The notes: generated by a model from the letters alone, not told the origin. Shown: positions 3,828-29,200, numbered from the stretch's first letter. The stretch is DNA of 33,516 nucleotides from Verrucomicrobiota bacterium (GCA_008933015.1 WBXH01000010.1:1-33516), one strand, 5' to 3'. Numbers and translations are program-made.

Positions 3828-4835
3828 ATGAGTGCTAATCCCATCGAATTGTCTCTCTTGAGAAGGATGAGGCGCAACCGTGCCACTGCGTCCCTTCGCT
3901 CTCTCGTGAGGGAAACGACTCTAACCCGTGGAGATCTTGTCCAACCACTTTTCATAAGAGCTGGGGAAGGGGAACCTGATCCGGTGGAATCGATGCCGCG
4001 GGTGGTGAGGCACACACTCCGCTCACTGGCTGAGGAATGCAGGCTCCTTGTGGGACGAGGCATCCCCGCCATTGCTCTCTTTCCCAGCATCGATGGGTCA
4101 AAAAAGGATGCCTTGGGAACCCATGCAACCGCATCCGACAATATCCTTTTCGAGGCGATCCGATCCGTAAAGTCCGCATGTCCATCACTGGTGGTGATTA
4201 CCGATGTCGCGCTTGATCCCTACACAGACCATGGGCATGATGGTTTGCTGAACGGACGGGGAGAGGTGGACAATGATTCCACTGTCGAGGCCCTCCAACG
4301 ACTTGCCTTGACTCAGGCTCAGGCTGGAGCCGATGTGGTGGCCCCCTCCGATATGATGGACGGGAGGGTGAAAGCCATCCGAGAGTTTCTTGATGGGGAG
4401 GGCTATGTAGAGACATCCATACTGGCCTATGCCGCAAAATATGCCTCAGGTTACTATGGTCCGTTCCGCGATGCTGTGAAGAGCGGAAGCAAACATGCCC
4501 GGCTTGATAAGCGAGGTTATCAGATGGATCCCTCGAATGTGCGTGAGGCTCTCCTTGAGGTGAAACTAGACGAGGAGGAGGGAGCTGACATGGTCATGGT
4601 CAAGCCAGCAGGCCCCTACCTTGATATCATCCGAGCGGTGAGGGAGTATACCCTCCTCCCGCTCGCGGCTTATCAAGTTTCCGGCGAGTATGCTCAGATC
4701 CACGCCGCCGCACGACTTGGATGGCTCGATTACGACGCCACTCGCGATGAATCATTGCTTGCGATCAAAAGGGCTGGGGCCGACATGATCTTCACCTATT
4801 TTGCCGCCGAGGTTGCCGATTCCCTCACGCGATGA
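3828..4835 (+). CDS. hemB: Delta-aminolevulinic acid dehydratase (porphobilinogen synthase)
   Basis: HemB condenses two 5-aminolevulinate molecules to porphobilinogen in cytoplasmic tetrapyrrole synthesis. The 335-residue product keeps both active-site lysines, K204 in KYASGYYGPFRDA and the Schiff-base K259 in MVMVKPAGPYLD. The metal loop reads DVALDPYTDHGHDG (residues 126-139). The three zinc-binding cysteines of E. coli-type enzymes are replaced by Ala128, Asp130 and Asp138. This is the zinc-independent type known from plants, cyanobacteria and Pseudomonas. The chosen ATG gives the conserved start RRMRRNRATASLRSLVRETT. The TGA stop overlaps the start of the next gene (ATGA), indicating coupling to the L,D-transpeptidase. 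The two functions have no obvious link. Confidence 0.97.
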   Translation: MSANPIELSLLRRMRRNRATASLRSLVRETTLTRGDLVQPLFIRAGEGEPDPVESMPRVVRHTLRSLAEECRLLVGRGIPAIALFPSIDGSKKDALGTHATASDNILFEAIRSVKSACPSLVVITDVALDPYTDHGHDGLLNGRGEVDNDSTVEALQRLALTQAQAGADVVAPSDMMDGRVKAIREFLDGEGYVETSILAYAAKYASGYYGPFRDAVKSGSKHARLDKRGYQMDPSNVREALLEVKLDEEEGADMVMVKPAGPYLDIIRAVREYTLLPLAAYQVSGEYAQIHAAARLGWLDYDATRDESLLAIKRAGADMIFTYFAAEVADSLTR

Positions 4836-5425
4836 ACACGCGAGGGTGGAAGGTAATCTGGTCTTCCTTTTTGGCGACCTGCATTTTGCTGATTTTTTCC
4901 GGTTGCGCAGGAGATACGCGCCATCGTCTTGTCGTGAGTCTGCCTGACCAGAAGATGCTTCTTCTCACCGATGGAAATCCGGTGGCGACTTACAGGGTTT
5001 CAACCTCAAAGTTCGGCACGGGGGATGGGGAGGGGAGTTATGCCACTCCGCTCGGTCATCTCTGCGTCAGGAAAAAAATCGGCGATGGGGCTCCAATTGG
5101 GGAAGTGTTCAAATCACGAAAACCAACGGGAGAAGTGCTCCCACCCGATGCCCAAGGGCGCGATCCTATCGTGACCCGGATCCTTTGGCTGGATGGCCTA
5201 GAGGTTCACAATCGGAATGCCTTTCAGCGCTGTATATATATTCATGGCACACCGCAGGAGTCCCTCTTGGGAAAACCGGTCAGTTACGGGTGTATCAGGA
5301 TGAGTTCATCGGATGTCGTGAAGCTTTATGAAATCGTTGGCAATGGGGCTCAGGTCGAGATCACAACCGAGCATTTAATCAGCGCTACCCCAAAAGAAAC
5401 GGGATTACAGAAGTCGCTTCCTTGA
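4832..5425 (+). CDS. L,D-transpeptidase (YkuD domain), probable lipoprotein
   Basis: The 197-residue protein begins with a basic stretch and a hydrophobic core ending in IFSGC, with Cys25 as the candidate lipidated residue. The -3 residue is Phe, slightly off the lipobox consensus. The YkuD domain follows, with catalytic-site residues in IHGTP (His138) and SYGCIRM (Cys154). Such enzymes form 3-3 peptidoglycan cross-links or attach proteins to peptidoglycan in the periplasm. The stretch between Thr/Ser-Phe-Gly and HGT is nearly the same as in the next gene, so the two are tandem paralogues. Its ATG overlaps the hemB stop by 4 nt. Whether it is a cross-linker, a lipoprotein-anchoring enzyme or a hydrolase cannot be read from the sequence. 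Confidence 0.9.
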   Translation: MNTRGWKVIWSSFLATCILLIFSGCAGDTRHRLVVSLPDQKMLLLTDGNPVATYRVSTSKFGTGDGEGSYATPLGHLCVRKKIGDGAPIGEVFKSRKPTGEVLPPDAQGRDPIVTRILWLDGLEVHNRNAFQRCIYIHGTPQESLLGKPVSYGCIRMSSSDVVKLYEIVGNGAQVEITTEHLISATPKETGLQKSLP

Positions 5426-5479
5426 ATCATCCATGGGGGTGGGGTTGACGTGATCGCTTTATAAGTTAATCTTATAGAC

Positions 5480-6160
5480 TTGAATCAAGAAGTCCTCCGC
5501 CACGTCCTCTTAGGCGTCCTCATTTTAATCGTTCCTCCGGTTGTCCTTCACGCAGAAGCAACCCAAAGGCCATTATCTTATGTATCAGATGCAGTTGGGG
5601 ATTTGAGGAGCGAGATCATTGTGAGTGTGAAAGATCAGCAATTAGTGCTGAAAAAGAATGGGAAAATGGAGGCCCATTATCCCGTCTCGACCTCCCGATT
5701 TGGAATCGGTGATCGCTTCGGAAGCTTTGCCACACCCCTTGGGAAGTTTTTTGTCCGCATGAAGATCGGATCGGGGCAACCGCTGGGCGAGGTCTTTCAT
5801 TCCCGGACTCCGACCGGCGAGGTGCTTAAGCCGAATGCTCCTGGGCGGGATCCTATCGTGACGAGGATCCTGTGGCTGGAGGGTGCTGAACCTGGTAATA
5901 GGAATGCCTTTCACCGTGGGATCTATATCCATGGGACTCCTCAGGAAAAGCTCCTTGGTCGTCCTGCCAGTTATGGGTGTATCAGGATGCGCTCCGTTGA
6001 TGTCGCAGCGCTCTTTGATCGTGTGGATACTGGTACGACGGTTAGGATTATCGCCGATCACCTGCCGTCGGTCCCCCCTCGCCTGAGTGGCATGGGCTTC
6101 CTAAATGCCCACGGCCTCATAGCGTCTCAAGCCAGCCAGCCAGAGTCCACGAGCCAGTAG
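5480..6160 (+). CDS. L,D-transpeptidase (YkuD domain), secreted paralogue
   Basis: This is a 226-residue paralogue of the preceding gene, sharing the blocks PTGEVL, GRDPIVTRILWL, IYIHGTPQE (His151) and SYGCIRM (Cys167). It begins with a typical signal peptide (hydrophobic LLGVLILIVPPVVLHAEA) but has no lipobox cysteine, so it should be released into the periplasm or held by other means. The start is a TTG at 5480: an in-frame stop lies just upstream and no ATG or GTG occurs before the signal peptide. A promoter-like TTGACG lies at 5445-5450. The last 60 nt overlap the 3' end of the minus-strand permease gene, so its C-terminal 19 residues, rich in Ser and Gln, are encoded antisense to that gene. 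Confidence 0.88.
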   Translation: MNQEVLRHVLLGVLILIVPPVVLHAEATQRPLSYVSDAVGDLRSEIIVSVKDQQLVLKKNGKMEAHYPVSTSRFGIGDRFGSFATPLGKFFVRMKIGSGQPLGEVFHSRTPTGEVLKPNAPGRDPIVTRILWLEGAEPGNRNAFHRGIYIHGTPQEKLLGRPASYGCIRMRSVDVAALFDRVDTGTTVRIIADHLPSVPPRLSGMGFLNAHGLIASQASQPESTSQ

Positions 6161-13067: not shown

Positions 13068-13141
13068 CGGGGCGTAGCTCAGCTTGGTAGAGCGCTTGGT
13101 TTGGGACCAAGAAGTCGCAGGTTCGAATCCTGTCGCCCCGA
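13068..13141 (+). tRNA. tRNA-Pro (anticodon TGG)
   Basis: The full cloverleaf is visible. The acceptor stem pairs CGGGGCG (13068-13074) with CGCCCCG (13134-13140). The D stem is GCTC/GAGC, the anticodon stem CTTGG/CCAAG has loop TTTGGGA with anticodon TGG at 13102-13104, and the T arm holds GTTCGAATCC. The discriminator base is A at 13141. CCA is not encoded, so it must be added after transcription. The gene stands alone between the GH130 gene and the ceramide-type operon. Confidence 0.95.
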
Positions 13142-13236: not shown

Positions 13237-14568
13237 ATGGCTAGAGACCTTTTCCAGAAGTGCCGGGAGTACAGCGATTCGGCAGATGCCCGAGCGCAGG
13301 GATTTTACCCCTATTTTCGCTGCATTGAGCAGAGCTACGGGAACCACGTCGTCTGCGGCGGCGAGGAGAAGATCATGATCGGGTCGAATAATTACCTCGG
13401 CCTTGCTCAGGATCCCCGCATCGTCGAGGCGGCTTGCGACGCAACGCGCAAGTTTGGGGCCGGTTGCACCGGATCCCGTTTGCTTAATGGTACGATTTCC
13501 CTGCATAATGAATTGGAGGAGTCGCTGGCAGCATTCCTTGGACGCGAAAGCGCCCTTCTATTTTCCACCGGTTTCTTCGCCAACCAAGGTGCGCTTGCAG
13601 CGCTGACAGAAGCGGAGGATTTCATTCTTTGTGACAGGGAAAACCACGCCTCGATCATCGAGGGGTGCCAGGTGGCACCGGCCAAATTGGTTCCCTACCG
13701 GCACAACTCCGTGGATGCTCTGCGTAATCGTCTCAAGCGCATCCCTGAAGATTCAGGCCGTCTCATCATCATGGATGGTATTTTTAGTATGTCTGGCGAC
13801 ATGGCGGACCTGCCGCCGATGGTGACAGCAGCCAAGGAATTCGGTGCCGTCATGTACGTCGACGAGGCTCATTCGCTCGGTGTGGTGGGTCCTCAGGGGC
13901 GCGGCGTGGTCCACCACTATGGTGTCAATGATGATGTCGAGATCGTCATGGGCACTTTTTCCAAGTCCTTTGGCTCGATGGGGGGCTTTATTTCCGGTTC
14001 TCATGAGATGATCGAGTTTGTAAAGCATAAGGCTCGTTGCTTCATTTTCACAGCCTCCTTGGCCCCAGCCGTGGTCGGCGGTGTTCTCAAAGCCCTTGAG
14101 ATCATGCAGGCCGAGCCCGAGCGTATCGAGATGCTCTGGCGCAACACGCGTAAGATGCACGAAGGATTCAAGTCCATCGGATTCAAAATCGGCTCCACTC
14201 AGAGCCCGATCGTACCGATTCTGATCGGTAGCGAAGCCAAGGCATTCGCCTTCGCCCAGCGCCTCTTTGAGGAGGGAGTCTTTGCCATTCCCGCGATCTA
14301 CCCCGCCGTTCGTTACGGTGAGGCGATCGTCCGCACAAGCTTCATGTCGACTCACTCAGAGGAAGATCTTGATAGGGTGCTCGACATCTTTGCCAAGATC
14401 GCCAGAGAATTAGGAACTTTCGATGACCCAGCATACACAGAACCAGGCCGCCGTAGAAATGTATTCGATTTTGCCCTGCCGCAGCGCGGCGGAGTTGAAG
14501 AAGTTCGAGTCGATTCCGGAACATCTTCACGGAACGGATCCGAACTTCACGCCGCCGTTTCCAGGTAG
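13237..14568 (+). CDS. spt: Serine palmitoyltransferase-like alpha-oxoamine synthase
   Basis: This PLP enzyme of the alpha-oxoamine synthase family probably condenses serine with a long acyl thioester to give 3-ketosphinganine. Visible features are the N-terminal IMIGSNNYLGLAQDPRI, GAGCTGSRLLNGT, DRENHASIIEG, YVDEAHSLGVVGPQGRG and the PLP lysine Lys243 in GTFSKSFGSMGGF. Other family members are 2-amino-3-ketobutyrate CoA ligase, BioF and HemA. The sphingolipid assignment rests on the two following genes, which match bacterial ceramide synthase and reductase types. The conserved domain ends near residue 395. The last 47 or so residues, Arg/Ser/Gly-rich, are read out of frame from the first 146 nt of the next gene, an unusual extension. 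The ATG at 13237 has no Shine-Dalgarno site. Confidence 0.87.
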   Translation: MARDLFQKCREYSDSADARAQGFYPYFRCIEQSYGNHVVCGGEEKIMIGSNNYLGLAQDPRIVEAACDATRKFGAGCTGSRLLNGTISLHNELEESLAAFLGRESALLFSTGFFANQGALAALTEAEDFILCDRENHASIIEGCQVAPAKLVPYRHNSVDALRNRLKRIPEDSGRLIIMDGIFSMSGDMADLPPMVTAAKEFGAVMYVDEAHSLGVVGPQGRGVVHHYGVNDDVEIVMGTFSKSFGSMGGFISGSHEMIEFVKHKARCFIFTASLAPAVVGGVLKALEIMQAEPERIEMLWRNTRKMHEGFKSIGFKIGSTQSPIVPILIGSEAKAFAFAQRLFEEGVFAIPAIYPAVRYGEAIVRTSFMSTHSEEDLDRVLDIFAKIARELGTFDDPAYTEPGRRRNVFDFALPQRGGVEEVRVDSGTSSRNGSELHAAVSR

Positions 14569-15574
14569 CGTCGTCGGCCTCATAGGGCCGAAGTCGGTCT
14601 TCCTGAAAAAACACGGGGAGATCACCCCTCTGATCGCATATCGCGATGGAAAACCCGTGGGACGAATTGCCGCGATCGTCAACCGCTCCCACAACAATTA
14701 CAACAAGGACTCGGTCGGATTCTTCGGTTTTTTTGATTTCATTAACGATGTTTCGGTGGCCAAAGCCCTCGTCGATGCCGCAGCTAAGATTCTCAAGGAA
14801 AAAGGGTTGACCATCATGAGGGGACCCTACAATCCCTCCATCAATGATGATTGCGGTGTCCTAACGGAGGGGAATGACCGTCCTACCTTCATCTCGATGC
14901 CGTGGAATCCGACCTACTACGATCAGATCTACAAGTCGGTTGGTCTTGGCGTTATTAGGACCCTTTACGCTTGGGATGTTCCTCTGCATGCGGACCCCCC
15001 CGCCCGCGTCACAAAAATCGTTAACTGGCTCAAGAAAAGGAACAACGTCTCGATCCGTACGATCGACATGAAGAACCTGAACAAGGAACTGGAGACAATC
15101 CATCGCCTCTACAACCAATGCCTCGATCGTAACTGGGGATTCTATCCGATCGCCCTGGAGGATCTACTTCATGCTGCGGATGATCTTAAGGCCATTGCCG
15201 ATCCGAGCATTATCGTCTTCGTCTGCATTGAGGGAAAGGATGTCGGTTTCTCTTTGGCTCTGCCGAATGTTAACGAGGTTTTCCATGCCTCCCGTGGAAG
15301 GAAAGGAATCTTCCGATTCCTTGAGATGGCCCTGCGTCTTCAGGTGCAGAAGATCAAAACGGATCGACTCACCGTGCTGGGTGTTGAGCCCGCTTACCGG
15401 GACAAGGGGCTCAGCGCCTTACTCTTCTTTGAGAGCTTCCGCATTGCCAAGGCCAAGTACGAACTCTCCGAAATCTCCTGGGTCGAAGCAAACAATGTGG
15501 AAATCCTCGAGGCTGCGGAACTCATGGGTGGCCACCACTCCCGCACCTACGAGCTTTTCGAGAAGGTCGTTTAA
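14423..15574 (+). CDS. bcerS: GNAT-like N-acyltransferase, probable bacterial ceramide synthase
   Basis: The 383-residue product belongs to a GNAT-like family often annotated only as N-acetyltransferase. Signatures are PLIAYRDGKPVGRIAAIVN, VGFFGFFDFI, MRGPYNPSINDDCGVL and a C-terminal acyl-CoA-fold segment with LGVEPAYRDKGLSALLF. In Caulobacter a GNAT-related protein encoded near spt acts as ceramide synthase, N-acylating the sphingoid base; this gene's position directly behind an spt-like gene supports the same job. The start is ATG 14423 or ATG 14459 (MYSILPCRSAAEL). Either way it overlaps spt by at least 110 nt in another frame. The assignment is inference from family and neighbours. Confidence 0.75.
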   Translation: MTQHTQNQAAVEMYSILPCRSAAELKKFESIPEHLHGTDPNFTPPFPGSVVGLIGPKSVFLKKHGEITPLIAYRDGKPVGRIAAIVNRSHNNYNKDSVGFFGFFDFINDVSVAKALVDAAAKILKEKGLTIMRGPYNPSINDDCGVLTEGNDRPTFISMPWNPTYYDQIYKSVGLGVIRTLYAWDVPLHADPPARVTKIVNWLKKRNNVSIRTIDMKNLNKELETIHRLYNQCLDRNWGFYPIALEDLLHAADDLKAIADPSIIVFVCIEGKDVGFSLALPNVNEVFHASRGRKGIFRFLEMALRLQVQKIKTDRLTVLGVEPAYRDKGLSALLFFESFRIAKAKYELSEISWVEANNVEILEAAELMGGHHSRTYELFEKVV

Positions 15575-15609
15575 AGCCCCCGGCCTACTGCTCCGGTTTA
15601 TCGCGCCCC

Positions 15610-16605
15610 ATGGAGTTGCTTCTGACTGGATCCACGGGGTTTGTGGGTCGTAATTTACTTCTCAGGATTCATCGAGATAATCGCTGGAGTCGGATCATCC
15701 TTCCTGTCCGTAATCCGGAAAAGCTTCTGTCCCAACTGGAGGGCGAGGGGGTTTCAGACGGTCGATTCGCCCCTTGTCGTGTCACTGGGGATTTTTGGGA
15801 GCTTCCTTCAGGTGCCGCGCCGGAGTTGGTGATTCATGCGGCGGGTCTTCTCTTTGGTCGTCGCCGCGAGGAGTATTTTAAAACGAATGTGGAGGGAACT
15901 TTGCGACTGATAGCCCAGTTGCCAAGGACAACCCGAATTATTGTTCTTTCCTCCCAGGCTGCCGGAGGCCCCACACCCCGTGGAGAGCATGCACGAACGA
16001 TGCATATTCCGGATAAGCCTGTCTCGTTCTATGGAGCCTCAAAGCTCACGATGGAGCGGGAGCTTCGCAATCGCCTTGGTTGGCGCCTCCTGATCCTCCG
16101 TCCATCGATGGTTCTCGGCCCGCGCGATGGCGCCACGCTGCCGCTCTTCAAGATGGCTGCCGGTCCCGTGCGGGTGAAACCGGGTTTTAAGGCCAAGCAC
16201 TATAGCTGGATCGATATCGATGATCTGTGCGATGGGATTCTGGCTGCTGCATTGGTTGCTCCCGCTCATTGGGAGAAGCAAGGGCCTTTTTATCTCGGCT
16301 CAGGAACAACGATTACCGACTCGGAGCTTATTGCCACTGCGGCTAGGGTCATCGAGTCTCGAGGTATCACCCTTCCGCTGCCTCAGGCTGCGATCCAACT
16401 CGCTTCTCTGGTCATTGACAGCGTCCCGGCCTGGCGGGAAGCCGTACCCAGTCTTGGGAGTGACAGGGTTCGTGAGATCCTGCCGGACCGCTGGGTCTGT
16501 GATTCGCGTCCATTTTCCGAGCACTTTGACTGGAACTCACGGGGCAATTTGGAGAATACCCTACGCTCCAGTGCGGATTGGCTGAAGAATCAAGGGAAGA
16601 TTTAA
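15610..16605 (+). CDS. cerR: NAD(P)-dependent epimerase/dehydratase, probable ceramide reductase
   Basis: This is a 331-residue extended short-chain dehydrogenase. It has the nucleotide-binding TGSTGFVG (residues 6-13), VIHAAG, NVEGTLRL, a Ser-rich strand IIVLSSQAAGG and the catalytic YGASK (Tyr141, Lys145). It lies 35 nt after the acyltransferase and ends the operon. In Caulobacter, CerR of this superfamily reduces the 3-keto group of oxidised ceramide, and the third position after spt and the acyltransferase fits that role. Alone, the sequence could equally be a nucleotide-sugar epimerase; the neighbours decide. No Shine-Dalgarno site precedes the ATG, which sits in a CGCCCC context. Confidence 0.75.
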   Translation: MELLLTGSTGFVGRNLLLRIHRDNRWSRIILPVRNPEKLLSQLEGEGVSDGRFAPCRVTGDFWELPSGAAPELVIHAAGLLFGRRREEYFKTNVEGTLRLIAQLPRTTRIIVLSSQAAGGPTPRGEHARTMHIPDKPVSFYGASKLTMERELRNRLGWRLLILRPSMVLGPRDGATLPLFKMAAGPVRVKPGFKAKHYSWIDIDDLCDGILAAALVAPAHWEKQGPFYLGSGTTITDSELIATAARVIESRGITLPLPQAAIQLASLVIDSVPAWREAVPSLGSDRVREILPDRWVCDSRPFSEHFDWNSRGNLENTLRSSADWLKNQGKI

Positions 16606-16730: not shown

Positions 16731-17300
16731 TCAATTCAACCCTGGATCATCCGGCGCATGGGAGAGCAAATGATACATCGTTCCCAGATCCTTCATGATC
16801 GCTTTCCAGCGATGGATGCCTTCCTCAGAGGTCCTTACAGGCTGAAGCATTTCCGCTGAGGGTTTAAGCAGGTGCCAAGATTTCTCAGTAATTTCCTGCT
16901 CGAGTTGTCCTGCTGTCCATCCCGCATAGCCGGTAAAGGCCAGAAGATTTTCCTCATCGTGGATAGTTTCACCATTTTCAATGCACAGATCTTTCTCCCC
17001 GAGCGATTGGAAACGCACGCCTGTATCCCTCCAGAGTAGGCGGGTCAGGATCAGATGCTGCTGTTCCACAGGACCTCCTTCAAAGACAGGTACGGCCGCT
17101 ACCTCTTTTGGTGCATCAGACAGCTCACCTAGGCTTTGATTCTTGGGGCGATTAAGAATGAAACCCATGGCGCCCGCCTGATCGTGGTGCGTGATCAGAA
17201 GGATCGCACGACGGAAATTCGCATCATGGAGCGCTGGAAGGGCTACTAGAAGCAAGCCTGCATGCCGGGTTTCGGTCGGATGGAATTCCTGAAGTCGCAC
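16731..17300 (-). CDS. yqgE: YqgE/AlgH family protein (DUF179)
   Basis: The 189-residue product has the family features HAGLLLVALPALHDANFRRA, GAMGFILNRP, VPVFEGGPVEQQHLILT, FTGYAGWTAGQLEQE and a C-terminal WKAIMKDLG. The molecular role is not known; in Pseudomonas AlgH has been linked to alginate expression. The start is a GTG at 17300, giving the usual distance to the conserved LLVALP block. A GGAGG lies about 15 nt upstream on the minus strand, further than a normal ribosome binding site. The gene is divergent from rplK, with 247 nt between the two starts. Confidence 0.93.
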   Translation of the reverse strand: MRLQEFHPTETRHAGLLLVALPALHDANFRRAILLITHHDQAGAMGFILNRPKNQSLGELSDAPKEVAAVPVFEGGPVEQQHLILTRLLWRDTGVRFQSLGEKDLCIENGETIHDEENLLAFTGYAGWTAGQLEQEITEKSWHLLKPSAEMLQPVRTSEEGIHRWKAIMKDLGTMYHLLSHAPDDPGLN

Positions 17301-17547: not shown

Positions 17548-17973
17548 ATGGCCAAAGAAATCACAGGACAGATCAAGCTCCAGATCCCAGCAGGTCAGGC
17601 AAATCCAGCACCTCCAGTCGGTCCAGCTCTTGGTCAGCAGGGTGTCAATATCATGGCTTTCTGCAAGGAGTTCAACGCTGCTACCCAGAAACAGGCCGGT
17701 GATATTCTTCCTGTCGTCATCACGGTATACAAGGACAAGAGTTTCACTTTCATCACCAAGTCCCCACCGGCTGGTGTTCTCCTTAAGAAGGCTGCTGGTA
17801 TCGCCTCCGGTTCCAAGGAGCCGAACAAGGTGAAAGTCGCCAAGCTTTCCAAAAAGCAAGTCATGGATCTCGTTAAGATCAAGATGAAGGACATGAACGC
17901 CCGCAGTGAAGAGGCCGCTTTCCGTACTCTTTGCGGCACAGCCCGCCAGATGGGTATCGAAATTGAGGCGTAA
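17548..17973 (+). CDS. rplK: 50S ribosomal protein uL11
   Basis: The 141-residue product is a typical L11, with [39 protein letters not shown] and [23 protein letters not shown]11 binds 23S rRNA at the GTPase-associated centre at the stalk base. It is the first gene of the stalk-RNA polymerase cluster. The ATG at 17548 has the context GTACCATGGC and no Shine-Dalgarno site. nusG does not precede it. Confidence 0.98.
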
Positions 17974-18063
17974 GAACGTAAGACCAATTTCCTAAGACAC
18001 ATTATCAACAACCAATCGCAGGAGGCTCTTAAATCTTGAGGGCCGATTGAACTGCAATAAAAA

Positions 18064-18765
18064 ATGCAAAACAAACGAAGCAAACGCTACCGCGCGGCTA
18101 ACGAACTCATTGAGCAGGGTCGCAAATATCCCTTGAACGAGGCCTTGGCTGTCCTCAAGAAGATGCCCCCCACGAAGTTTGATCAGACGGTGACCGTCTC
18201 AATCCGTCTAGGGGTTGATCCCAAGCAGAGCGACCAGATGGTGCGTGGCACTTGCCCATTACCCCATGGAAGCGGAAAAAATGTCCGGGTTCTCGTCTTC
18301 GCAACCGGAGCCGCAGCCACCGCAGCCCAAGAGGCTGGTGCTGAGTTTGTAGGTTTCGAGGATCTTCTCAAGAAAGTGCAGGGTGGATTTTCCGATTTCG
18401 ATGTTGCTATTGCGACCCCCGCAGCCATGGTTGAGGTTCGTAAACTTGGTAAAGTGCTCGGACCACGTGGTCTGATGCCAAATCCAAAGACGGGCACGGT
18501 GAGTGATGACACTGCCAAGGCAGTGTTAGAGGTCAAGGCTGGGCGCGTTGAGTTCAAACTCGACAAGAACGCTAACATTGCCGTTCCAGTCGGAAAAATC
18601 TCCTTCTCCCAAGAGCAACTCCTCGACAACACCAAGTCGGTCATTGAGGCTGTTGTGAAATCTCGCCCAGCGACCGCCAAGGGATCCTTTGTCGAATCCC
18701 TCACACTTGCAGCGACAATGTTGCCTGGCATTTTGCTTGATGCGGCTCCATTTCTTAAGAGCTAA
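18064..18765 (+). CDS. rplA: 50S ribosomal protein uL1
   Basis: The 233-residue product has L1 features: KRSKRYRAANELI, SIRLGVDPKQSDQMVRGT, LPHGSGKNVRVLVFA and KVLGPRGLMPNPKTGTV. L1 forms the mobile L1 stalk at the E site and in many bacteria represses its own operon. The 90-nt spacer after rplK contains an AGGAGG, but at 18020-18025, 38 nt before the ATG, too far to act as a normal ribosome binding site. The immediate leader is A-rich (CAATAAAAAATG). Confidence 0.98.
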   Translation: MQNKRSKRYRAANELIEQGRKYPLNEALAVLKKMPPTKFDQTVTVSIRLGVDPKQSDQMVRGTCPLPHGSGKNVRVLVFATGAAATAAQEAGAEFVGFEDLLKKVQGGFSDFDVAIATPAAMVEVRKLGKVLGPRGLMPNPKTGTVSDDTAKAVLEVKAGRVEFKLDKNANIAVPVGKISFSQEQLLDNTKSVIEAVVKSRPATAKGSFVESLTLAATMLPGILLDAAPFLKS

Positions 18766-18814
18766 ATAACAAGCTCGGAACTGAAAACCAAATAACGGAA
18801 CCAGGACTAATACA

Positions 18815-19489
18815 ATGCGCCCCGAGAAACCCACGATCGTAGAGGACGTAAAACTGCGCCTCACCAATTCACCTTTCCTCATCATTGTCGAGTACGGCGG
18901 GATGAATGTTCAACATTTTGCTGAGCTCCGCACTCGTCTTGGAGGAGTTGGCTCTTCCATGACCGTCGTCAAGAACACATTCCTTCGTCGCTCGGTGAAA
19001 GACGCTGGTCTGCCTGATCTTGATCATCATCTGACTGGCCAGACTGCATTTGTTGTCGGAGAAAAGGATATCTGCGCGGCGGCTAAGATCCTCAAGACCT
19101 TCGCTGCTGAATTCACAAAACCGACGATCCGGGCCGGCATCCTCGACAACCAGATCCTTGAGACCTCGCAGGTGATGGCGTTGGCGGATCTTCCTGCGAA
19201 GGAAATCCTTCAGTCTCAGTTGCTCGCTCTCCTTCTTACTCCGGCCACACAACTTGTCCGTACTCTTAATGAGCCTGCGGCCAGCTTGGCACGCGTACTT
19301 AAGGCTATGGGAGATAAGATGCCCTCGTCTCCAGCCAAGGCAGATGTATCCGAATCGACCAAGGAGCAAGAAATCGCACCCATTGTTGCAGAATCCGCAG
19401 CGCCGGCTCCCGAGGCAGTTGCAGAGTCGTCCGAGGCGGCTGCGCCAGCAGTTGTGGAGGAGGCTCCATCCGCCCCTGCCGCCGAATAG
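18815..19489 (+). CDS. rplJ: 50S ribosomal protein uL10 with extended acidic tail
   Basis: L10 holds the L7/L12 dimers on the ribosomal stalk. The 224-residue product starts MRPEKPTIVEDVK and shows GGMNVQHFAELR, VVKNTFLRRSVKDAGL and LLTPATQLVRTLNEPAASLARVLKA, the last being the start of the helix that carries L7/L12. Most L10 proteins have about 165-180 residues. Here about 45 extra residues follow, rich in Ala, Pro, Glu and Ser (for example ESAAPAPEAVAESSEAAAP). The tail is low-complexity and probably disordered. The 49-nt spacer after rplA is too short for a classical L10 leader. Confidence 0.97.
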   Translation: MRPEKPTIVEDVKLRLTNSPFLIIVEYGGMNVQHFAELRTRLGGVGSSMTVVKNTFLRRSVKDAGLPDLDHHLTGQTAFVVGEKDICAAAKILKTFAAEFTKPTIRAGILDNQILETSQVMALADLPAKEILQSQLLALLLTPATQLVRTLNEPAASLARVLKAMGDKMPSSPAKADVSESTKEQEIAPIVAESAAPAPEAVAESSEAAAPAVVEEAPSAPAAE

Positions 19490-19585
19490 TTTCAGATCTT
19501 TCAACCCGATCAGCAAAACCCTAACCAAAAAAATTTCTCCCGGCGTACGAAGCCACGACGGGTGAAGGAAACACAACACGATGAA

Positions 19586-19640
19586 CTGTCGGGCCGGCGG
19601 CTGCCGGACTCAAATGTCCTGAGGCTTCGGGACGCGACAG
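19586..19640 (+). promoter_or_regulatory. Three-way-junction-like RNA fold between rplJ and rplL
   Basis: An outer 6-bp helix pairs CTGTCG (19586-19591) with CGACAG (19635-19640). It encloses two hairpins: CCGGC/GCCGG (19594-19598 with 19603-19607) and GTCCTGA/TCGGGAC (19616-19622 with 19627-19633, one G-T pair). Both have the same four-base loop GGCT. The fold ends 22 nt before the rplL ATG. It could bind a ribosomal protein or modulate processing or translation of rplL. I do not recognise it as a known leader family. Confidence 0.5.
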
Positions 19641-19662
19641 CATCAAAATCCAAACCAACATC

Positions 19663-20043
19663 ATGTCCGATAACCAAGCCATTGTAGATCAACTCAGCAA
19701 CCTGACGGTTCTTCAGATTGCAGACCTCGTTAAGTCCCTTGAAGAGAAGTGGGGCGTCAGCGCCGCCGCTCCTGTTGCTGTAGCCGCCGCTGGCGGTGGT
19801 GGAGCCGCAGCTCCTGCCGCCGAGGAGAAGACCTCCTTTGACGTCATACTCAAGGAAGCCGGATCCAATAAGATCGGCGTCATCAAAGAGGTTCGTGCAG
19901 CAGTTCCAGGGCTCGGTCTTGCCGAGGCTAAGGCACTCGTTGAAAGCGCACCAAAGGCCATCAAGGAAGGCGCCACCAAGGAAGAGGCCGAGGAGATCAA
20001 GAAGAAGATCGAGGCCGCTGGTGCCAAGGTCGAGATCAAGTAG
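19663..20043 (+). CDS. rplL: 50S ribosomal protein bL12 (L7/L12)
   Basis: The 126-residue product has the N-terminal dimerisation part ([20 protein letters not shown]), an Ala/Gly-rich hinge and the C-terminal factor-binding domain with [19 protein letters not shown] and [16 protein letters not shown]12 recruits elongation and initiation factors to the ribosome. A 173-nt spacer follows rplJ, much of it structured, and the last bases before the ATG are A/C-rich (AAATCCAAACCAACATC) with no Shine-Dalgarno site. Confidence 0.98.
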
Positions 20044-20070
20044 CCGAAGGCTGCCTGATTACGCAATTCC

Positions 20071-20121
20071 TGCCGGTCATCGTGTTCAAGGGGGACTTCC
20101 TCATTGACACAATGGCCGGCA
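20071..20121 (+). promoter_or_regulatory. Long stem-loop in the rplL-rpoB spacer (processing or attenuation candidate)
   Basis: The arms 20071-20089 and 20104-20121 form 17 base pairs: TGCCGGTCAT with ATGGCCGGCA, then GTGT with ACAC, then CAA with TTG, broken only by one mismatch and one bulged T. The loop is 14 nt. It starts 28 nt after the rplL stop. No T-tract follows, so a double-strand cleavage site of RNase III type is more likely than an intrinsic terminator. In E. coli the same spacer holds an RNase III site and an attenuator. Confidence 0.6.
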
Positions 20122-20199
20122 AAGCGTAAAAAGAAAAGTTTCACCTGCCTCAAGTTCTGCACCTCAGTCTCAAGACTCCTAGTCAATCATTTTATAGTG

Positions 20200-20239
20200 C
20201 CGCCCGCTCCGGTTCCTCAAAGGAACCAAGAGCAGGCGG
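20200..20239 (+). promoter_or_regulatory. Second stem-loop in the rplL-rpoB spacer (attenuator candidate)
   Basis: CCGCC (20200-20204) pairs with GGCGG (20235-20239), GCTC with GAGC, and GGTTCCT (20211-20217) with AGGAACC (20221-20227) over a CAA loop. This makes 16 pairs with two small internal loops. It is followed by a T-containing run (ATTTTGGTTTATT), so it could act as a partial terminator before rpoB. Confidence 0.55.
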
Positions 20240-20349
20240 ACATTTTGGTTTATTGGTTCCCTCCTCCCTTTCTCCCAGCACACAACCCCGTCTCACCCTT
20301 CTTGGCAAAAGCCTGAAATGGTAGAGAAAGCCACCCCGGCGATCACTTA

Positions 20350-20371
20350 GCGACAACAACGCGACAACAAC
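20350..20371 (+). repeat. Perfect 11-nt tandem repeat in the rpoB leader
   Basis: GCGACAACAAC occurs twice without a gap (20350-20360 and 20361-20371), 11 nt before the rpoB ATG. The leader has no Shine-Dalgarno site and almost no U. CAA-rich repeats of this kind keep mRNA unstructured and can act as translation enhancers, as in the tobacco mosaic virus omega leader. Their role here is inference. Confidence 0.7.
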
Positions 20372-20382
20372 GACCAAGTACC

Positions 20383-23300
20383 ATGTCTGACCGTATCTCC
20401 TTTGGCAAACTGTACGAAGCTATCCAACCACCCAACCTCATTGAGTTGCAGATCAAGTCCTATGAGGAGTTCTTCCAGACGGGTGTCGATCCAACGAAGA
20501 GGAAGAACGTGGGTCTTCAAGCTGTCTTCCGTGAGTTTTTTCCTATCTATGGCTTCGAGGAGAAGTCGCATCTGGATTTTGTCAGCTACTCCTTGGAGGA
20601 ACCCAAGATCGGACCCGTAGAATGTCAGATCGAGGGTGAAACTTACAGCGCTCCCCTTTATGTGACCTTTCGTTACAAGGACGAGAAGTCCACCAAGGAA
20701 GAGAAGGTCTACATGGGCGAAATCCCTCTCATGACCAAGCAGGGCACTTTCATGGTCAACGGAGCCGAGCGGGTCGTCGTCAGCCAGTTGCATCGCTCTC
20801 CCGGTATCTGCTTTGAGAGCGACGTGCACCTCAATGGAAAGCTGCTTTACGGCTTTCGCATCATTCCTGATCGTGGTTCTTGGACAGAAGTCCAGTTTGA
20901 CACGAACGACCTCCTTTACGTCTACCTCGACCGACGCAAGCGTCGGCGCAAGTTTCTTGCCACAACTTTCCTCCGTGCTCTTGGTTTCCCGACCGATGAG
21001 GAGATCGCGGCACTATTCTACAAGATCGAATCGTTAAAACTAACCGACAAACTCAACGACGAGGTGCTTAGCACCAAGGTACTGCTACAGGATGTCAGGG
21101 AGGGTGACGCCATCATTGCCAGGGCCTACGAACCCCTGACACCCGCCATCGTGCGTGATCTGCTGCGCCTAGGACATTCCACGGTGAAGGTAATCGACAC
21201 CAAGGAAGACGACACCATCGTCAAATCACTCAAGCGTGATACGACCAAGAATGAAGAGGAAGCCCTCAAGGACATCTACCGCAAACTTCGTCCCGGCGAT
21301 CCTCCGACGGTGCAGAATGCACGCGGCATGCTCAAGCGACTCTTCTTTGACTCCAAACGCTACGATCTTGGTCGTGTTGGCCGTCATAAAATCCAGCAGA
21401 AGCTAGGTCTTGATCCTAAAATCGACGACCGGATCCTTCGTAAGGAGGATATCGTTGAGTCGATGCGTTATCTGCTAAAACTAAGGCGCGGCGATGGTAT
21501 GACCGATGATATCGATCATCTGGGTAGTCGTCGTGTGCGTACAGTGGGTGAACTTCTCGCTAACCAGTGCCGAGTGGGTCTGTCCCGCACAGAGCGTCTC
21601 GTTCGCGAGCGTATGGCCCTCTACGACCCAGCAGTCGATCACATCACACCGCAGAAGCTCATCAATCCGAAGTCGCTTAGCGCCGTGGTACGTGATTTCT
21701 TCGGTCGTTCACAGTTGAGCCAGTTCATGGATCAGACCAATCCGCTTTCCGAATTGACTCACAAGAGACGTCTCTCGGCCCTTGGGCCCGGAGGGCTTTC
21801 TAGGGAGCGCGCAGGATTCGAGGTTCGTGACGTACATCCGTCGCACTACGGGCGCATCTGTCCGATCGAAACCCCTGAAGGTCCGAACATCGGACTGATT
21901 AGCTCTTTGAGCACCTACGCTCGGGTCAATGACTTTGGATTCATTGAGACCCCGTACCGTAAGGTCATCAATGGCAAGGTCACCGACGAGATCGAATATC
22001 TCACCGGAGACCGCGATGAAAATTTCTACATCGCGCAGGCAAATTCAACCGTGGACAGCAAGGGCAAGTTCCTCGGTGAGACAGTCTCCTCGCGTTATCG
22101 CGGTGATTTCCTCGAGATTGAACCGGACAAGATTCAGTACATGGATGTCTCTCCGAAGCAGTTGGTCTCGGTTGCTGCAGGACTGATCCCGTTCCTTGAG
22201 CATGATGACGCGAACCGCGCACTCATGGGGTCGAACATGCAACGCCAAGGCGTACCTCTCCTCATCTCCGAGGCTCCCATCATCGGAACAGGACTTGAGG
22301 GCCGAGTTGCCCGTGACTCCCGTGCGGTCATTGTCTCTGAGGCCTCCGGGAAGGTTGCTTCAGTCGATTCACAGCGGATTATCATCACGAAAAACGGGGA
22401 ACTTCCCGAGGGTCGTAAGAAGCTCAAACATGATCCGGAGAACGGACTTCATGTATATGAACTCCGCAAGTTCATGCGCTCAAATAGCAGCACCTGCATC
22501 AACCAGCATCCTCTTGTCAAAAAAGGGCAGTCGGTGAAGGTCGGTGACGTTCTCGCAGACGGACCCAATACGGAGAATGGTGAACTCGCTCTCGGCCGTA
22601 ACGTGCTTGTCGCGTTCATGCCTTGGAATGGTTACAACTTCGAGGATGCCATCATGATCTCTGAAAGAGTCGTCAAGGAGGACATTTACACGTCGATCCA
22701 CATCGATGAGTTTGAAATCGGCGCTCGCGACACGAAGCTCGGACCCGAAGAGATCACCCGCGACATTCCGAACGTCAGCGAGGAGGCTCTGCTAAATCTT
22801 GGGCCTGATGGCGTCATCCGCATCGGTGCGGAGGTTAAGCCAGGCGATATTCTGGTCGGAAAGATCACCCCGAAAAGCGAGACGGAGCTTGCTCCCGAAG
22901 AGCGCCTTCTGCGTGCTATCTTCGGTGAGAAGGCAGCCGATGTGAAGGACACATCCCTGACCGTCCCATCAGGAACTTACGGCATTGTCATGGACGTGCG
23001 CGTTTCCTCCAAGGAGAAGGCCGCCAAGATCAAGATGACCCCTTCGGAGTCGAAGCGTCAGCAGAAGATGATACAAGAAGACAACAAGAAGCGGAAGGAC
23101 GAACTCTTCGAGCAACTCACGGAAGCGCTTGCAAACGTACTTCTTGGGGAGAAAATTCCTCTCGACGTTGTCAACGGCGAGTCCGGAGAGATCATCATCC
23201 CGGCTAATCGTAAGATCACCAAGATGCTTCTGCGCAAGCTTGCCGGCGTCTACAATCACGTCGAAATCGACCCGAGCCCGATCCGTAACAAAATCCAAGA

Positions 23301-24189
23301 GATTATCGGACAGTTCGAGCATCGGTTTGCCGACCTTGAGAATGAGAAAGAAGAGAATCTGGGCCGTGTTGAAAGCGGTGACGATGTCGATCCTGGAATC
23401 ATTAAGCAGGTCAAGGTCTTCATTGCCAGCAAGAGAAAACTCAGCGTCGGTGACAAAATGGCAGGCCGTCACGGTAACAAAGGTGTCGTGGCCAAGATCG
23501 TTCCGGAAGAGGACATGCCGTTCCTTCCCGATGGAACTCCGGTTGACATCGTCCTCAACCCGCTGGGCGTGCCGAGTCGCATGAACGTCGGGCAGGTTCT
23601 TGAGACGCACCTTGGTATCGCCGCAAAGGCTCTTGGTTTCAAGGTGGCCACACCCGTTTTCGACGGTATACCTGAGACTAGGATCCGCGAATACCTCGTT
23701 GAGGCTGGCAAGAAAGAAGGCTTCTCCTGGATTCAGGAAAACGGGAAGTCCACACTCTACGATGGACGTACCGGTGATGTTTTCGACCAGCAGGTCGTTG
23801 TCGGCATCATTTACATGCTCAAACTCGGTCACCTTGTCGCTGACAAGATCCACGCCCGTGCGGTCGGACCCTATTCCCTCGTTACCCAGCAACCGCTGGG
23901 AGGCAAGGCTCAGTATGGCGGGCAGCGCTTCGGTGAGATGGAAGTCTGGGCTCTTGAGGCTTATGGAGCGGCTTACACTCTCCAGGAGTTGCTCACCGTG
24001 AAGTCGGATGACGTCCAGGGGCGCACTCGCATTTACGAGAGCATCGTCAAGGGTGACAACTCGCTGGAGGCCGGTATTCCGGAGTCCTTCAACGTGCTCA
24101 TCAAGGAGATGCAGGGTCTCGGACTCGATGTTCATGTGGGCCGCAAAGATGCTGCCCAATCCTTCATTGATGAGGTCGCCTCAGTCTGA
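20383..24189 (+). CDS. rpoB: DNA-directed RNA polymerase subunit beta
   Basis: The 1268-residue product is a full-length beta subunit starting [20 protein letters not shown]. The rifampicin-pocket region (about residues 441-470) reads [16 protein letters not shown] then [14 protein letters not shown], keeping the Asp, His and Ser residues that are mutated in resistant strains, so the pocket is of sensitive type. Further landmarks are [40 protein letters not shown] and [18 protein letters not shown]. It pairs with beta' to form the catalytic core. The ATG is preceded by a CAA-rich tandem repeat instead of a Shine-Dalgarno site. rpoC follows after 75 nt. Confidence 0.99.
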
Positions 24190-24214
24190 GCGACCTCTCA
24201 AGCACATCCATTTA

Positions 24215-24248
24215 CAGCAACAAGCCGCAAAACAGCGCAGCAACAAGC
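24215..24248 (+). repeat. 11-nt direct repeat in the rpoC leader
   Basis: CAGCAACAAGC occurs at 24215-24225 and again at 24238-24248, within the 75-nt A/C-rich spacer before rpoC. The motif shares the CAACAA core with the repeat before rpoB, although the unit differs. No Shine-Dalgarno site is present between the second copy and the ATG at 24265. Confidence 0.65.
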
Positions 24249-24264
24249 AGCACAATAACGATCC

Positions 24265-27200
24265 ATGACCGACACAGCACTTGCAGTAGAAGCCAGCATT
24301 CTTACAAACCCCATCAAGTCAAACTTTGACGAGGTGGGAATCACGGTTGCCAACCCCGAGACCATGCGGAGTTGGAGCAAAGGTGAAGTCAAGAATCCGG
24401 AGACCATCAATTATAGGACCTTCAAACCCGAGAAGGGCGGATTGTTCTGCGAGCGAATCTTCGGACCCACACGTGATTGGGAGTGCTCGTGCGGCAAATA
24501 CAAGCGCATTAAGCATAAGAATGTTGTCTGTGATCGTTGTGGCGTCGAGGTCTGCCTGAGTCGCGTACGCCGCGAGCGCATGGGTCATATCGACCTGGCT
24601 GTTCCCGTATCCCACATCTGGTTTTACAAGTGCATGCCATCACGCATCGGTCTCATGCTGGATCTCACCGGTCGCCAACTTGAGCGAGTGATCTACTATG
24701 AGGATTACATCGTTATTGATCCGGGCAAGACTCCCTTTGAAAAGGGACAACTCCTGACGGAAATCGAGTTCCGTGAGGCAGAGGATCAGTATGGTGAAGA
24801 CTTTGTAGCCGGAATGGGTGCAGAAGCCATCCAGAAGCTGATGGAGGGACTGGATTTGCTCGAAGAGCAGCAGTCCATCGAGAAGCAGATGACCCAAACC
24901 AAGAGTAAGCAGATCCGCAAGAAGCTTGCGAAGCGACTTAAGCTTGTCCAAGGGTTCATGTCATCCAAGACGCGCCCGGAGTGGATGATCCTGAACGTTC
25001 TTCCCGTCATCCCTCCTGATCTCCGTCCGCTGGTTCCTCTCGAGGGTGGGCGTTTCGCTACATCCGATCTCAACGACCTTTATCGTCGCGTGATCAACCG
25101 CAACAACCGTCTCCGCACCCTTCTCCAGTTGAAGACCCCCGAGGTCATCATCCGCAACGAGAAGCGTATGCTTCAGGAAGCCGTGGATGCACTTTATGAT
25201 AATGGTCGCCATGGTCGCGCCGTCACGGGTGCAGCCAATCGTCCTCTGAAGTCCCTCAGCGACATGCTGAAGGGTAAGGGCGGTCGTTTCCGCCAGAATC
25301 TGCTCGGCAAGCGCGTCGATTACTCCGGTCGATCCGTTATCGTCATTGGACCTGAGCTTAAGCTAAACCAGTGTGGTCTTCCCAAGAAGATGGCACTCGT
25401 TCTGTTCGAGCCTTTCATCATCCGCAGGCTCAAGGAACTCGGATATGTCCACACGGTCCGCAGCGCCAAGAAGCTCATTGAGCGTCAGACACCGGAGGTC
25501 TGGGATATCCTTGAAGAGGTGACAAAGGGTCACGCCGTTCTGCTGAACCGCGCGCCGACACTCCACCGTCTTTCGATCCAGGCCTTCGAGCCGATTTTGA
25601 TCGAGGGAGAGGCGATCCGTGTTCATCCGCTGGTCTGTACTGCCTATAATGCCGACTTCGATGGTGATCAGATGGCAGTCCACGTGCCGCTTTCAGTCGA
25701 GGCCCAGCTTGAGGCTAGGACACTGATGCTGGCACCGAACAATATCTTTTCGCCCTCCAGCGGTAAACCGATCACGAACCCTTCTCAGGACATTCCTCTC
25801 GGTTGTTATTACCTGACTCAGAATCCGCGCAATATCACCCCGAAGGATGTGAAAGCCGCATCGGAAGCTCGTCTTCCGCTTTTCGCAGCTCCCTCCGAGG
25901 TTGAGTTAGCCCTCTCGGAGGAAAGTGTCAAGATTCACACCCGCATCCGTTTGAAGAATCCTGACCGTGGGATCAAGTCGGTTTACGGTAATGCGGAACT
26001 AGCTGTTATCGAGACCACTGTTGGGCGCGTTCTGTTCAATCAGATCTGGCCCAAGGAGCTTGGTTTCTACAATAAGGTTGCCGGTAAGAAGCAACTCAGT
26101 GACATCATCTGGCGCTGCTACAAGGCCGTTGGCCAGGCACGTACGGTCGAGACCCTTGACCTGCTCAAAGAGATCGGATTCCGTGAGGCCACGCGTGCGG
26201 GTGCCTCGATCGGCATCAATGACATGATCATTCCCAAGGAGAAAGCCTCTCTTATCGATGGAGCTCAGAAGCAGATCTCCGAGGTGCAGAAACAATATCG
26301 CCGCGGTATCATCACTGACGGTGAGCGTAAGAATAAGGTGCAGGATATCTGGACTCACACGGGTGAGGAGATTGCCAATGCACTCTTCAGGACCCTTGAG
26401 CACAACGAGGGTCGCCGTGAGGCCAACCCTGTTTTCATGATGGTCGATTCCGGGGCCCGAGGAAACCGCACCCAGGTCAAGCAGTTGGCCGGTATGCGCG
26501 GACTTATGGCCAAGCCATCAGGCGAAATCATCGAGCGTCCTATTCTCTCGAATTTCCGCGAAGGTCTTTCGGTGCTTGAGTACTTCATCTCCACGCACGG
26601 TGCACGTAAGGGTCTTGCAGACACGGCTCTTAAGACGGCTGATTCCGGGTACCTCACCCGCAAACTTGTTGATGCGGCCCAGGACGTGATCATCAACAAT
26701 TTGGATTGCGGAACGGTCAATGGAATTGTCGTCAGGCCCATCTACGAGGGAGACGAGGAAGTTGTCAGTTTGGCGACCCGTATTATCGGGCGCGTCAGCT
26801 GCGAAACCGTCAAGGATCCGGTCAACAATGAGGCGATTCTCAAGGCAAACCAACTCATCGATGAAGAGACTGCCGCCGCCCTTGACAGGATCGGTCACGA
26901 ACAACTCAAGATCCGCTCGGTGCTTACCTGTGAGAACAAGCGAGGAGTCTGCGCAAAATGTTACGGCCGCAATCTCTCGACTGGTCTTATGATCGGACTC
27001 GGTGAGGCTGTCGGAATTATCGCCGCCCAATCCATCGGTGAGCCCGGAACTCAGCTCACGATGCGAACCTTCCACGTTGGTGGAACGGCTAGCCAGACCT
27101 TTAAACAGCCAATCATCAAGGCCAAAAACGACGGACAACTCCGCTTCAATGACCTCCGTACCGTCAAGGCTTTGGACGGGACCTATATTGTTCTCTCCAA

Positions 27201-28392
27201 GAACGGAACGGTCGGCGTCCACGGGAAAGACGGACGCGAACTTGAGAGCTACCCTGTTGTCATCGGATCTGTCATCTCAACCGAAGATGGCGGCGCCATC
27301 AAGAAGGGGGAGACATTCGTCCAATGGGATCCCTACAACGTGCCCATCATCACGGAAAAGACCGGTAAGGTTGAATTCCGCGACATGATCAATGGGGTCA
27401 CCATCCGCAAGGAAGTTGACGAAGAGACGGGTGTCATGGGCACCGTCCTCATTGAGCACAAGGATGACCTTCATCCTCAGATCGTCATCGTTGACGCAGC
27501 CAAGGAGGTTCTTGCCAGCTACTCAATCCCTGCAGGAGCCCACCTTGAGGTCAAGGAGGGTGAAAAAGTCCAAGCCGGACAGCGTATGGCCAAAACTCCT
27601 CGAAAGATTGCCAAGACGAAGGACATCACCGGTGGTCTCCCGCGTGTGGCTGAACTCTTCGAGGCACGTCGTCCGAAGGATGCCTGCGAAATCGCACGGA
27701 TCGACGGTGTGGTTGATATCGGCGGCACGGTACGTGGTAAGCGGAAGTTGATCGTTCGTGATCCTCAGACCGGAACCGAAGAAGAGCACCTCATTCCTCT
27801 CTCGAAGCATATCATCGCCTTCAAGGGTGATTTCGTGAAGAAGGGCCAACAACTCACCGAGGGGCCTGTCGTGCCTCATGAGATCCTTGATGTCTGCGGA
27901 CCTCAGGAGCTTCAGGAGCATCTCCTCAACGAAGTTCAGGAGGTCTATCGTCTGCAAGGCGTGGAAATCAATGACAAGCACATTGAGATCATCGTTCGTC
28001 AGATGCTCCGCAAGGTGAAGATCACCGATCCCGGAGATACCCTTCTTCTATGGGGTGATCAGATCGATCGCCTTGAGTTTGAGAGTGAAAACGAGCGTGT
28101 CACTGCCAAAGGCGGAAAGCCTGCGGAAGCTGCACCCGTGCTCCTCGGTATCACCAAGGCCTCCCTTGAGACGGATAGTTTCATCTCGGCGGCTTCCTTC
28201 CAAGACACCACCAGGGTCCTCACGGAGGCTGCCACTCTTGGCAAATCCGACAGGCTTCGCGGTTTCAAGGAGAACGTCATCATGGGTCATCTCATTCCTG
28301 CAGGAACGGGATTCAAGTCGAACCGTTCGTTCGATCTTGTCCATCTTGGAGAGCCCTCCGATACAGAATCCCCAGTTGAAGAAGCCATCTAA
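24265..28392 (+). CDS. rpoC: DNA-directed RNA polymerase subunit beta'
   Basis: The 1375-residue product carries the catalytic magnesium motif NADFDGDQM (residues 462-470). The N-terminal zinc site has Cys74, Cys76, Cys89 and Cys92 (CSC and CDRC), and the second zinc cluster includes [13 protein letters not shown]. The trigger-loop region [20 protein letters not shown] is intact. Length is close to that of the E. coli subunit (about 1400). It is encoded as one unsplit polypeptide, with a normal insertion-containing C-terminal part rich in barrel-sandwich motifs. rpsB follows after only 35 nt, which is not the usual neighbour (rpsL, rpsG). Confidence 0.99.
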
Positions 28393-28427
28393 GTAAGTCA
28401 CCCAAGCAAGCAACCAAAAACCTTCCT

Positions 28428-29168
28428 ATGCCACTTGAAACTATGACAGAACTCCTCGAAGCAGGAGTCCACTACGGCCACCAGACCAAACGCTGGAATC
28501 CAAGAATGCGCGACTTCATTCTTGAGGAGAAAAACTCCATCCACATCATCGACCTTTCCAAGACGGTCGAGCAACTCCAGAAAGCCGGCGAATACCTTGC
28601 CGGTGTTTCGCGTCAGGGAGGAAAGATTCTCTTCGTAGGCTGTAAAAAGCAGGCCCAAGAAGCAGTTAAAGAAGCCGCACAGGCTTGCGGACAGTTCTAT
28701 GTGAATCAGCGTTGGCTGGGCGGAACTCTCACCAATCTTGTCACCATTCGCAAGAGCGTCTCAAAGTTGAAAGATTTCGAGGCACTTGAGAAGTCGGCCG
28801 GATTTAGCAAGATCAACAAGGCTGAGGCTTCCGCCCTTCGTCGTGAAGCAACACGCATCCGTCAGAACCTCGAGGGTGTTCTTGAGATGGACAAACTTCC
28901 TGACGTCATCGTTATCATCGATACCATCAAGGAAGCCATCGCGGTTGCCGAAGCACGTAGGCTCGGCATTCCCATTGTGGCGGTTGTTGATTCCAACAGT
29001 AATCCCGAGGAGATCAACTACCCGATTGCCGGAAACGACGACGCTATCCGCGCTATCCGCATTATCCTCCAGAAGTTGGTCGATTCCATCGTGAAATCAC
29101 GTCCAGGGAACAAGGTTGCTGCCGAAACGGCACAGCCTACCGAAGAACTCACAGCAGTTGCTGAATAA
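28428..29168 (+). CDS. rpsB: 30S ribosomal protein uS2
   Basis: The 246-residue product shows LLEAGVHYGHQTKRWNPRM, NSIHIIDLSKTVEQL, KILFVGCKKQAQEAV, QRWLGGTLTN and DTIKEAIAVAEARRLGIP. S2 joins late in 30S assembly and needs S1. The leader AAGCAAGCAACCAAAAACC is A/C-rich with short AAGC repeats and no Shine-Dalgarno site. It is followed by tsf after 32 nt, the widespread rpsB-tsf pair, here joined to the rpoBC operon. Confidence 0.98.
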   Translation: MPLETMTELLEAGVHYGHQTKRWNPRMRDFILEEKNSIHIIDLSKTVEQLQKAGEYLAGVSRQGGKILFVGCKKQAQEAVKEAAQACGQFYVNQRWLGGTLTNLVTIRKSVSKLKDFEALEKSAGFSKINKAEASALRREATRIRQNLEGVLEMDKLPDVIVIIDTIKEAIAVAEARRLGIPIVAVVDSNSNPEEINYPIAGNDDAIRAIRIILQKLVDSIVKSRPGNKVAAETAQPTEELTAVAE

Positions 29169-29200
29169 GCGATTGATTCATCACCGTACGCTTTATCACC

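Follow-up and report, generated by a model that had tools for sequence, protein, structure and literature searches.

The locus raises two questions: do its three closely packed genes encode the core of bacterial ceramide synthesis, and how are the first two of them read in different frames from the same bases? In the window, the whole 33,516-nucleotide stretch of Verrucomicrobiota DNA that was analysed, a compact ceramide operon had been proposed from the sequence, and the three open reading frames of this original prediction were all present at that place, on one strand and separated by an overlap or a 35-nt gap. The genes, all on the plus strand, are spt (13237-14568), which encodes a serine palmitoyltransferase of 443 residues with a 48-residue C-terminal extension, a gene in the +1 frame relative to spt (14423-15574), which encodes a 383-residue bCerS-like tandem GNAT N-acyltransferase, and a cerR candidate (15610-16605), which encodes an extended SDR of 331 residues (Pfam Epimerase, 2.3e-19). 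The overlap had been noticed, but its length of 146 nt (14423-14568, both genes on the same strand) and its conservation had not. A tRNA-Pro(TGG) gene found by ARAGORN (13068-13141, plus strand) forms the upstream boundary of the operon, and a convergent open reading frame (16731-17300) lies downstream of the SDR gene. Promoter and terminator scans gave nothing above chance level. Elsewhere in the window, positions 4832-6160 contain two tandem, similar secreted proteins that by reading appear L,D-transpeptidase-like (YIHGTPQE...SYGCIRM), and positions 17548-30109 look, also by reading, like a cluster of ribosomal protein and RNA polymerase genes, rplK-rplA-rplJ-rplL-rpoB-rpoC, with rpsB and tsf immediately after it.

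The host assembly is a draft of 1.42 Mb in 114 contigs that is 85% complete. Its nearest named genomes are Spartobacteria/Chthoniobacterales (Verrucomicrobiota), which bears out the earlier guess of a PVC-group host; the genomes compared are metagenome-assembled (MAGs), and the isolate names of many of the nearest ones apparently indicate lake origin. As spt, bCerS and the SDR gene are all retained in 16 of the 16 genomes of the genus, the three-gene set is not due to chance. A literature search found no lipid data for the host organism and no literature on Spartobacteria sphingolipids, the sole paper containing both words being a soil survey.

The first protein had been read as Spt on the strength of its PLP lysine, and this residue was confirmed as K243. 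The other alpha-oxoamine synthase (AOS)/SPT active-site residues are also all present (N52, H137, D209, H212 and R366). The best PDB match was the Sphingobacterium SPT (408 bits), upon which the Spt model superposed with a TM score of 0.96 by target length. The rival possibility that the enzyme is KBL, BioF or another AOS, and hence that the operon makes something else, gains some plausibility from the 36% identity of E. coli KBL to Spt and from the lack of any other strong AOS match in the host assembly (itself 85% complete), such that a role in biotin or threonine metabolism would not be absurd. However, KBL scored only 262 bits, and in the tree proposed for this purpose, which took in characterised SPTs together with KBL/BioF outgroups (SulA and ALAS were not included), the protein grouped with the SPTs with support of 100/97. 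Moreover, its Ala273 is SPT-like, whereas KBL and BioF carry Asn or Thr at that position, and bCerS and SDR genes are linked to such spt-type genes in many phyla. The tree and residue 273 led us to reject a KBL/BioF identity, and a product other than a sphingoid base seems very improbable.

Residue 273 bears equally on a sulfonolipid (capnine) pathway composed of a cysteate acyltransferase, an N-acyltransferase and a reductase. Cysteate acyltransferases share the fold and are about 31% identical to Spt, but their PDB chains scored 237 and 228 bits, compared with the 408 bits of SPT. Lys281 marks SulA and Ala marks SPT (PMC9304779), and the corresponding residue here is Ala273. Sulfonolipid synthesis was rejected on this residue, and we consider it scarcely credible. 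The first protein is thus best read as Spt, and by sequence its subgroup is nearest to the Bacteroidetes/delta type. It fell short of the NCBIfam equivalog cut-offs for SerpalmtaseCFB (490 of 640 bits) and BetaP (402 of 500 bits), and we therefore place it in the wider bacterial SPT clade only.

The second protein had been called a GNAT-related ceramide synthase. It matches E. coli YghO essentially over its full length (residues 24-383, 28.5% identity, E=3e-40), and YghO is the counterpart of Caulobacter CC_1154 (PMC9386255). The E. coli and Sphingomonas orthologues served as references in place of the Caulobacter proteins; by way of YghO, the protein passes the homology thresholds of E <= 1e-30 and coverage >= 50% used in PMC11334938. 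Identity was 33.6% to the spt-linked GNAT of Rubrobacter and 28.5% to the protein of Sphingomonas; Roseomonas plasmid genes and the spt-linked GNAT of Aureispira also matched. Foldseek returned tandem GNATs (E down to 6e-13) for a model of pLDDT 89. Taken together these data make a good case for the bCerS assignment. We also observed that a plasmid record of E. coli strain PN43 carries a complete set of AOS, ACP, SDR, acyl-AMP ligase and yghO genes adjoining lptF/lptG-like genes.

Assignment of the third protein as CerR is weaker by sequence. The SDR motifs are in place (TGSTGFVG at residue 6, SS at 114 and YGASK at 141), and the matches to proteobacterial counterparts are weak (1.8e-8 for E. 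coli, 9e-10 for Sphingomonas). Matches to Rubrobacter (2e-20) and Aureispira (3e-23) came closer to a threshold of E <= 1e-30, all four values having been obtained with a query set other than the published one. When the E. coli CerR counterpart was the query, however, the cerR candidate was the best match in the host genome. The strongest evidence is co-occurrence, for the SDR tracks Spt across the 197 genomes of the order: both genes are present in 59, Spt alone in 3, the SDR alone in 3 and neither in 132, such that 59 of the 65 genomes having either gene have both, with the proviso that shared ancestry makes these counts non-independent. The two genes are on different contigs in 18 of the 59 genomes, and thus the association is not merely one of linkage. 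These data support the original identification of the protein as CerR. In a set of genomes of one family (f7; G027, G037, G307, G312, G331 and others) the cerR homologue was found on a contig apart from an overlapping spt-bCerS pair. The Caulobacter CerR is periplasmic. The cerR candidate has no obvious signal peptide, its Rossmann strand beginning at residue 2.

Given these assignments, the overlap itself must be accounted for. Spt usually ends at about residue 396 with bCerS usually beginning shortly thereafter, whereas here bCerS starts within spt codons. The ATG at 14423 is preceded by an RBS-like AGGA embedded in spt (approximately 14412-14415, plus strand), which is formed by a CTA Leu codon followed by GGA (or GGG, giving AGGG), an arrangement absent from other families. 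In the family the Leu codon is CTA in 19 of 21 genomes and TTA in one, although CTA makes up 2.6% of Leu codons, and Spt Asp396 is GAT in 21 of 21, which creates the bCerS ATG; other families mostly use GAC. Fixation of GAT and of the rare CTA codon in the family supports the ATG at 14423 as the bCerS start.

Could the overlap be an assembly or annotation error, arising from a frameshift at the spt 3' terminus or from a wrongly called start of bCerS? A 2008 survey of 338 prokaryotic genomes gives reason for caution in that it accepted as real none of 715 co-directional overlaps longer than 60 bp (PMC2478687), although later cases may exist. Against an artefact, the overlap is 146 nt in the genus and has the same length, frame and bCerS ATG in most genomes of the family, which are separate assemblies, and it extends to other families, being 41-161 nt across the Chthoniobacterales and related Bdellovibrionales depending on the relative and the start codon chosen. 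The embedded Shine-Dalgarno sequence and ATG are conserved, and bCerS residues 15-48 are predicted to be folded and align with the bCerS proteins of other organisms. Conservation within the family and beyond it largely refutes an artefact, and we consider the chance of one negligible. One relative (L022) has an insertion in the bCerS alignment (430 columns for 381 residues), possibly denoting a disrupted or extended copy.

If the overlap is genuine, is the Spt tail a functional part of the protein? The tail consists of a conserved part that is kept order-wide (residues 396-414, DDPAYTEPGRRRNVFDFAL; 14422-14478, plus strand) and a variable end that is predicted to be disordered (14479-14568, plus strand), the TAG stop codon of which lies within bCerS codons Gly48-Ser49. 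In the Chthoniobacterales and in one group of Bdellovibrionales the tail motif is approximately G.F[DE][DE].AY followed by basic residues and then FDF or GYDF. The motif is retained in four relatives in which bCerS does not overlap (L113, L116, L118 and L123) and is therefore conserved for its own sake. In the structural models Spt residues 412-443 have pLDDT values below 50, whereas the same bases encode bCerS residues 15-48 as strand and helix (block means 84-94). The reverse holds for bCerS residues 1-11, which are predicted to be disordered and share their bases with the conserved Spt motif. Two proteins encoded by the same bases would be expected to show such complementary order and disorder.

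Dual coding was tested by simple counts over related sequences rather than by a full phylogenetic model. Within the genus, divergence at bCerS fourfold sites was 0.21 at codons 15-48 versus a mean of 0.58 elsewhere; none of 301 other bCerS windows fell below 0.47, and the shift falls at the Spt stop codon. The bCerS leader (codons 2-14) is free to vary. Changes that are missense in Spt and synonymous in bCerS occurred at 0.023 per site at Spt residues 397-409 and at 0.25 at residues 418-443, as compared to 0.51-0.63 in 14 downstream control windows. Both missense and nonsense changes in the Spt frame were depleted, and the missense depletion persisted after nonsense changes were removed. The dN/dS-like ratio NN/SN was 0.13 in the first part of the tail. 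Upon random synonymous recoding the Spt frame stayed open in 15-31% of cases and the native stop codon was reached in 1-2%. The counts argue firmly for selection on roughly the first 20 tail residues. Over the last 26 Spt codons the NN/SN ratio was 1.27 versus 1.43 in the control, giving no clear constraint at the amino-acid level; hence, the remainder of the tail is under weaker constraint and may in part be carried passively.

The latter values speak for a further alternative, that Spt simply lost its stop codon and runs on along bCerS, the constraint reflecting RNA structure or initiation rather than the Spt tail. Disorder is predicted for the last part of the tail, where NN/SN is near 1, and the tail is shortened in some relatives, with the Spt stop codon shifted to residue 419 in three of them. 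However, this explanation sits poorly with the low NN/SN ratio of the first ~20 tail residues and their conservation even without an overlap, with the end of synonymous constraint at the Spt stop codon, and with the depletion of Spt missense changes when nonsense changes are set aside. We therefore regard a purely passive overlap as unlikely, albeit the most serious of the alternatives, and both frames of the overlap appear to be kept by selection.

Hence, we think it highly likely that the locus is a three-gene operon for the core of bacterial ceramide synthesis in which bCerS starts inside the Spt tail. From the genes it encodes, the organism very probably makes ceramide lipids by the three-gene route known from other bacteria. 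Spt would condense serine and a long-chain acyl thioester into 3-ketosphinganine, bCerS would N-acylate 3-ketosphinganine (or sphinganine) and CerR would reduce the ketone. The order of these reactions is itself inferred; the original prediction took the order, inverted relative to eukaryotes, as known from Caulobacter, but published studies disagree on it (PMC11087976, PMC11324152). In this lineage Spt would have gained a C-terminal tail and bCerS would be translated from a Shine-Dalgarno sequence and ATG within spt codons, such that reading 146 nt in two frames would tie the expression of Spt and bCerS by translational coupling. A bolder version, which we consider decidedly doubtful, has the Spt tail as a functional module for docking to bCerS or to the membrane, with 3-ketosphinganine passed directly to bCerS prior to reduction, and the overlap setting the stoichiometry while CerR is free to relocate. 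If the tail did act in docking, the gene architecture would provide independent support for acylation before reduction, the disputed order. In either version the overlap makes testable the notion that Spt and bCerS are coupled and act before CerR. Replacement of LPS by a sphingolipid was considered and set aside; lpxC occurs in the host genome and in 19 of the 22 genomes of the family, and so LPS has not obviously been lost.

The pathway and the compact operon are ordinary and already known; the novelty is the overlap. The same three enzyme families are found in Caulobacter crescentus as spt (CC_1162), cerS/bcerS (CC_1154) and cerR (CC_1164) (PMC9386255, PMC11324152) and in E. coli as ECD_02854, yghO and ECD_02852. 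Caulobacter has dedicated acpR and aasR genes with cerS in a separate operon, whereas here bCerS overlaps spt and no dedicated ACP or acyl-ACP synthetase gene was seen adjoining the three genes; the Bacteroidetes/delta-like Spt also differs from that of Caulobacter. In environmental MAGs spt, bCerS and cerR have been reported to co-localise in about 40 phyla, with 22 MAGs of the Verrucomicrobiota encoding Spt-like proteins (PMC11334938), and thus the same gene set in the same phylum as here; the passages of that paper on the MAG clusters mention neither an overlap nor a Spt tail. The tight packing emphasised in the original prediction is present, but is not unique: a Rubrobacter radiotolerans plasmid carries spt, GNAT and SDR genes arranged as here, the first two overlapping by 8 nt and the last two 13 nt apart, although that Spt ends near the usual length and lacks a long tail.

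The closest parallel is in another phylum. The spt-bCerS-cerR loci of Bdellovibrionales have both the tail, with a variant motif ending in GYDF, and the long overlap (identities of 58-65, 44-48 and 38-44%, respectively). Since each of the three Bdellovibrionales proteins resembles its Chthoniobacterales counterpart more closely than it does those of other phyla, and the Spt and bCerS trees both join the two groups, the data point to transfer of the operon between the two phyla, the direction depending on rooting. Sphingophosphonolipids are known products of Bdellovibrio/Bacteriovorax stolpii (PMC6148460). A long same-strand overlap that is kept over much of an order plus Bdellovibrionales with constraint in both frames is rare. 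The locus contrasts both with the 2008 overlap survey and with the statement of a 2024 paper that bacterial cerS is always in an operon separate from spt. The longest true co-directional overlap given in that survey is 56 bp, and holD-rimI of Enterobacteria, likewise a conserved overlap between two functional genes read in the same direction, falls within this limit (PMC2478687), as compared to the 146 nt shared by spt and bCerS.
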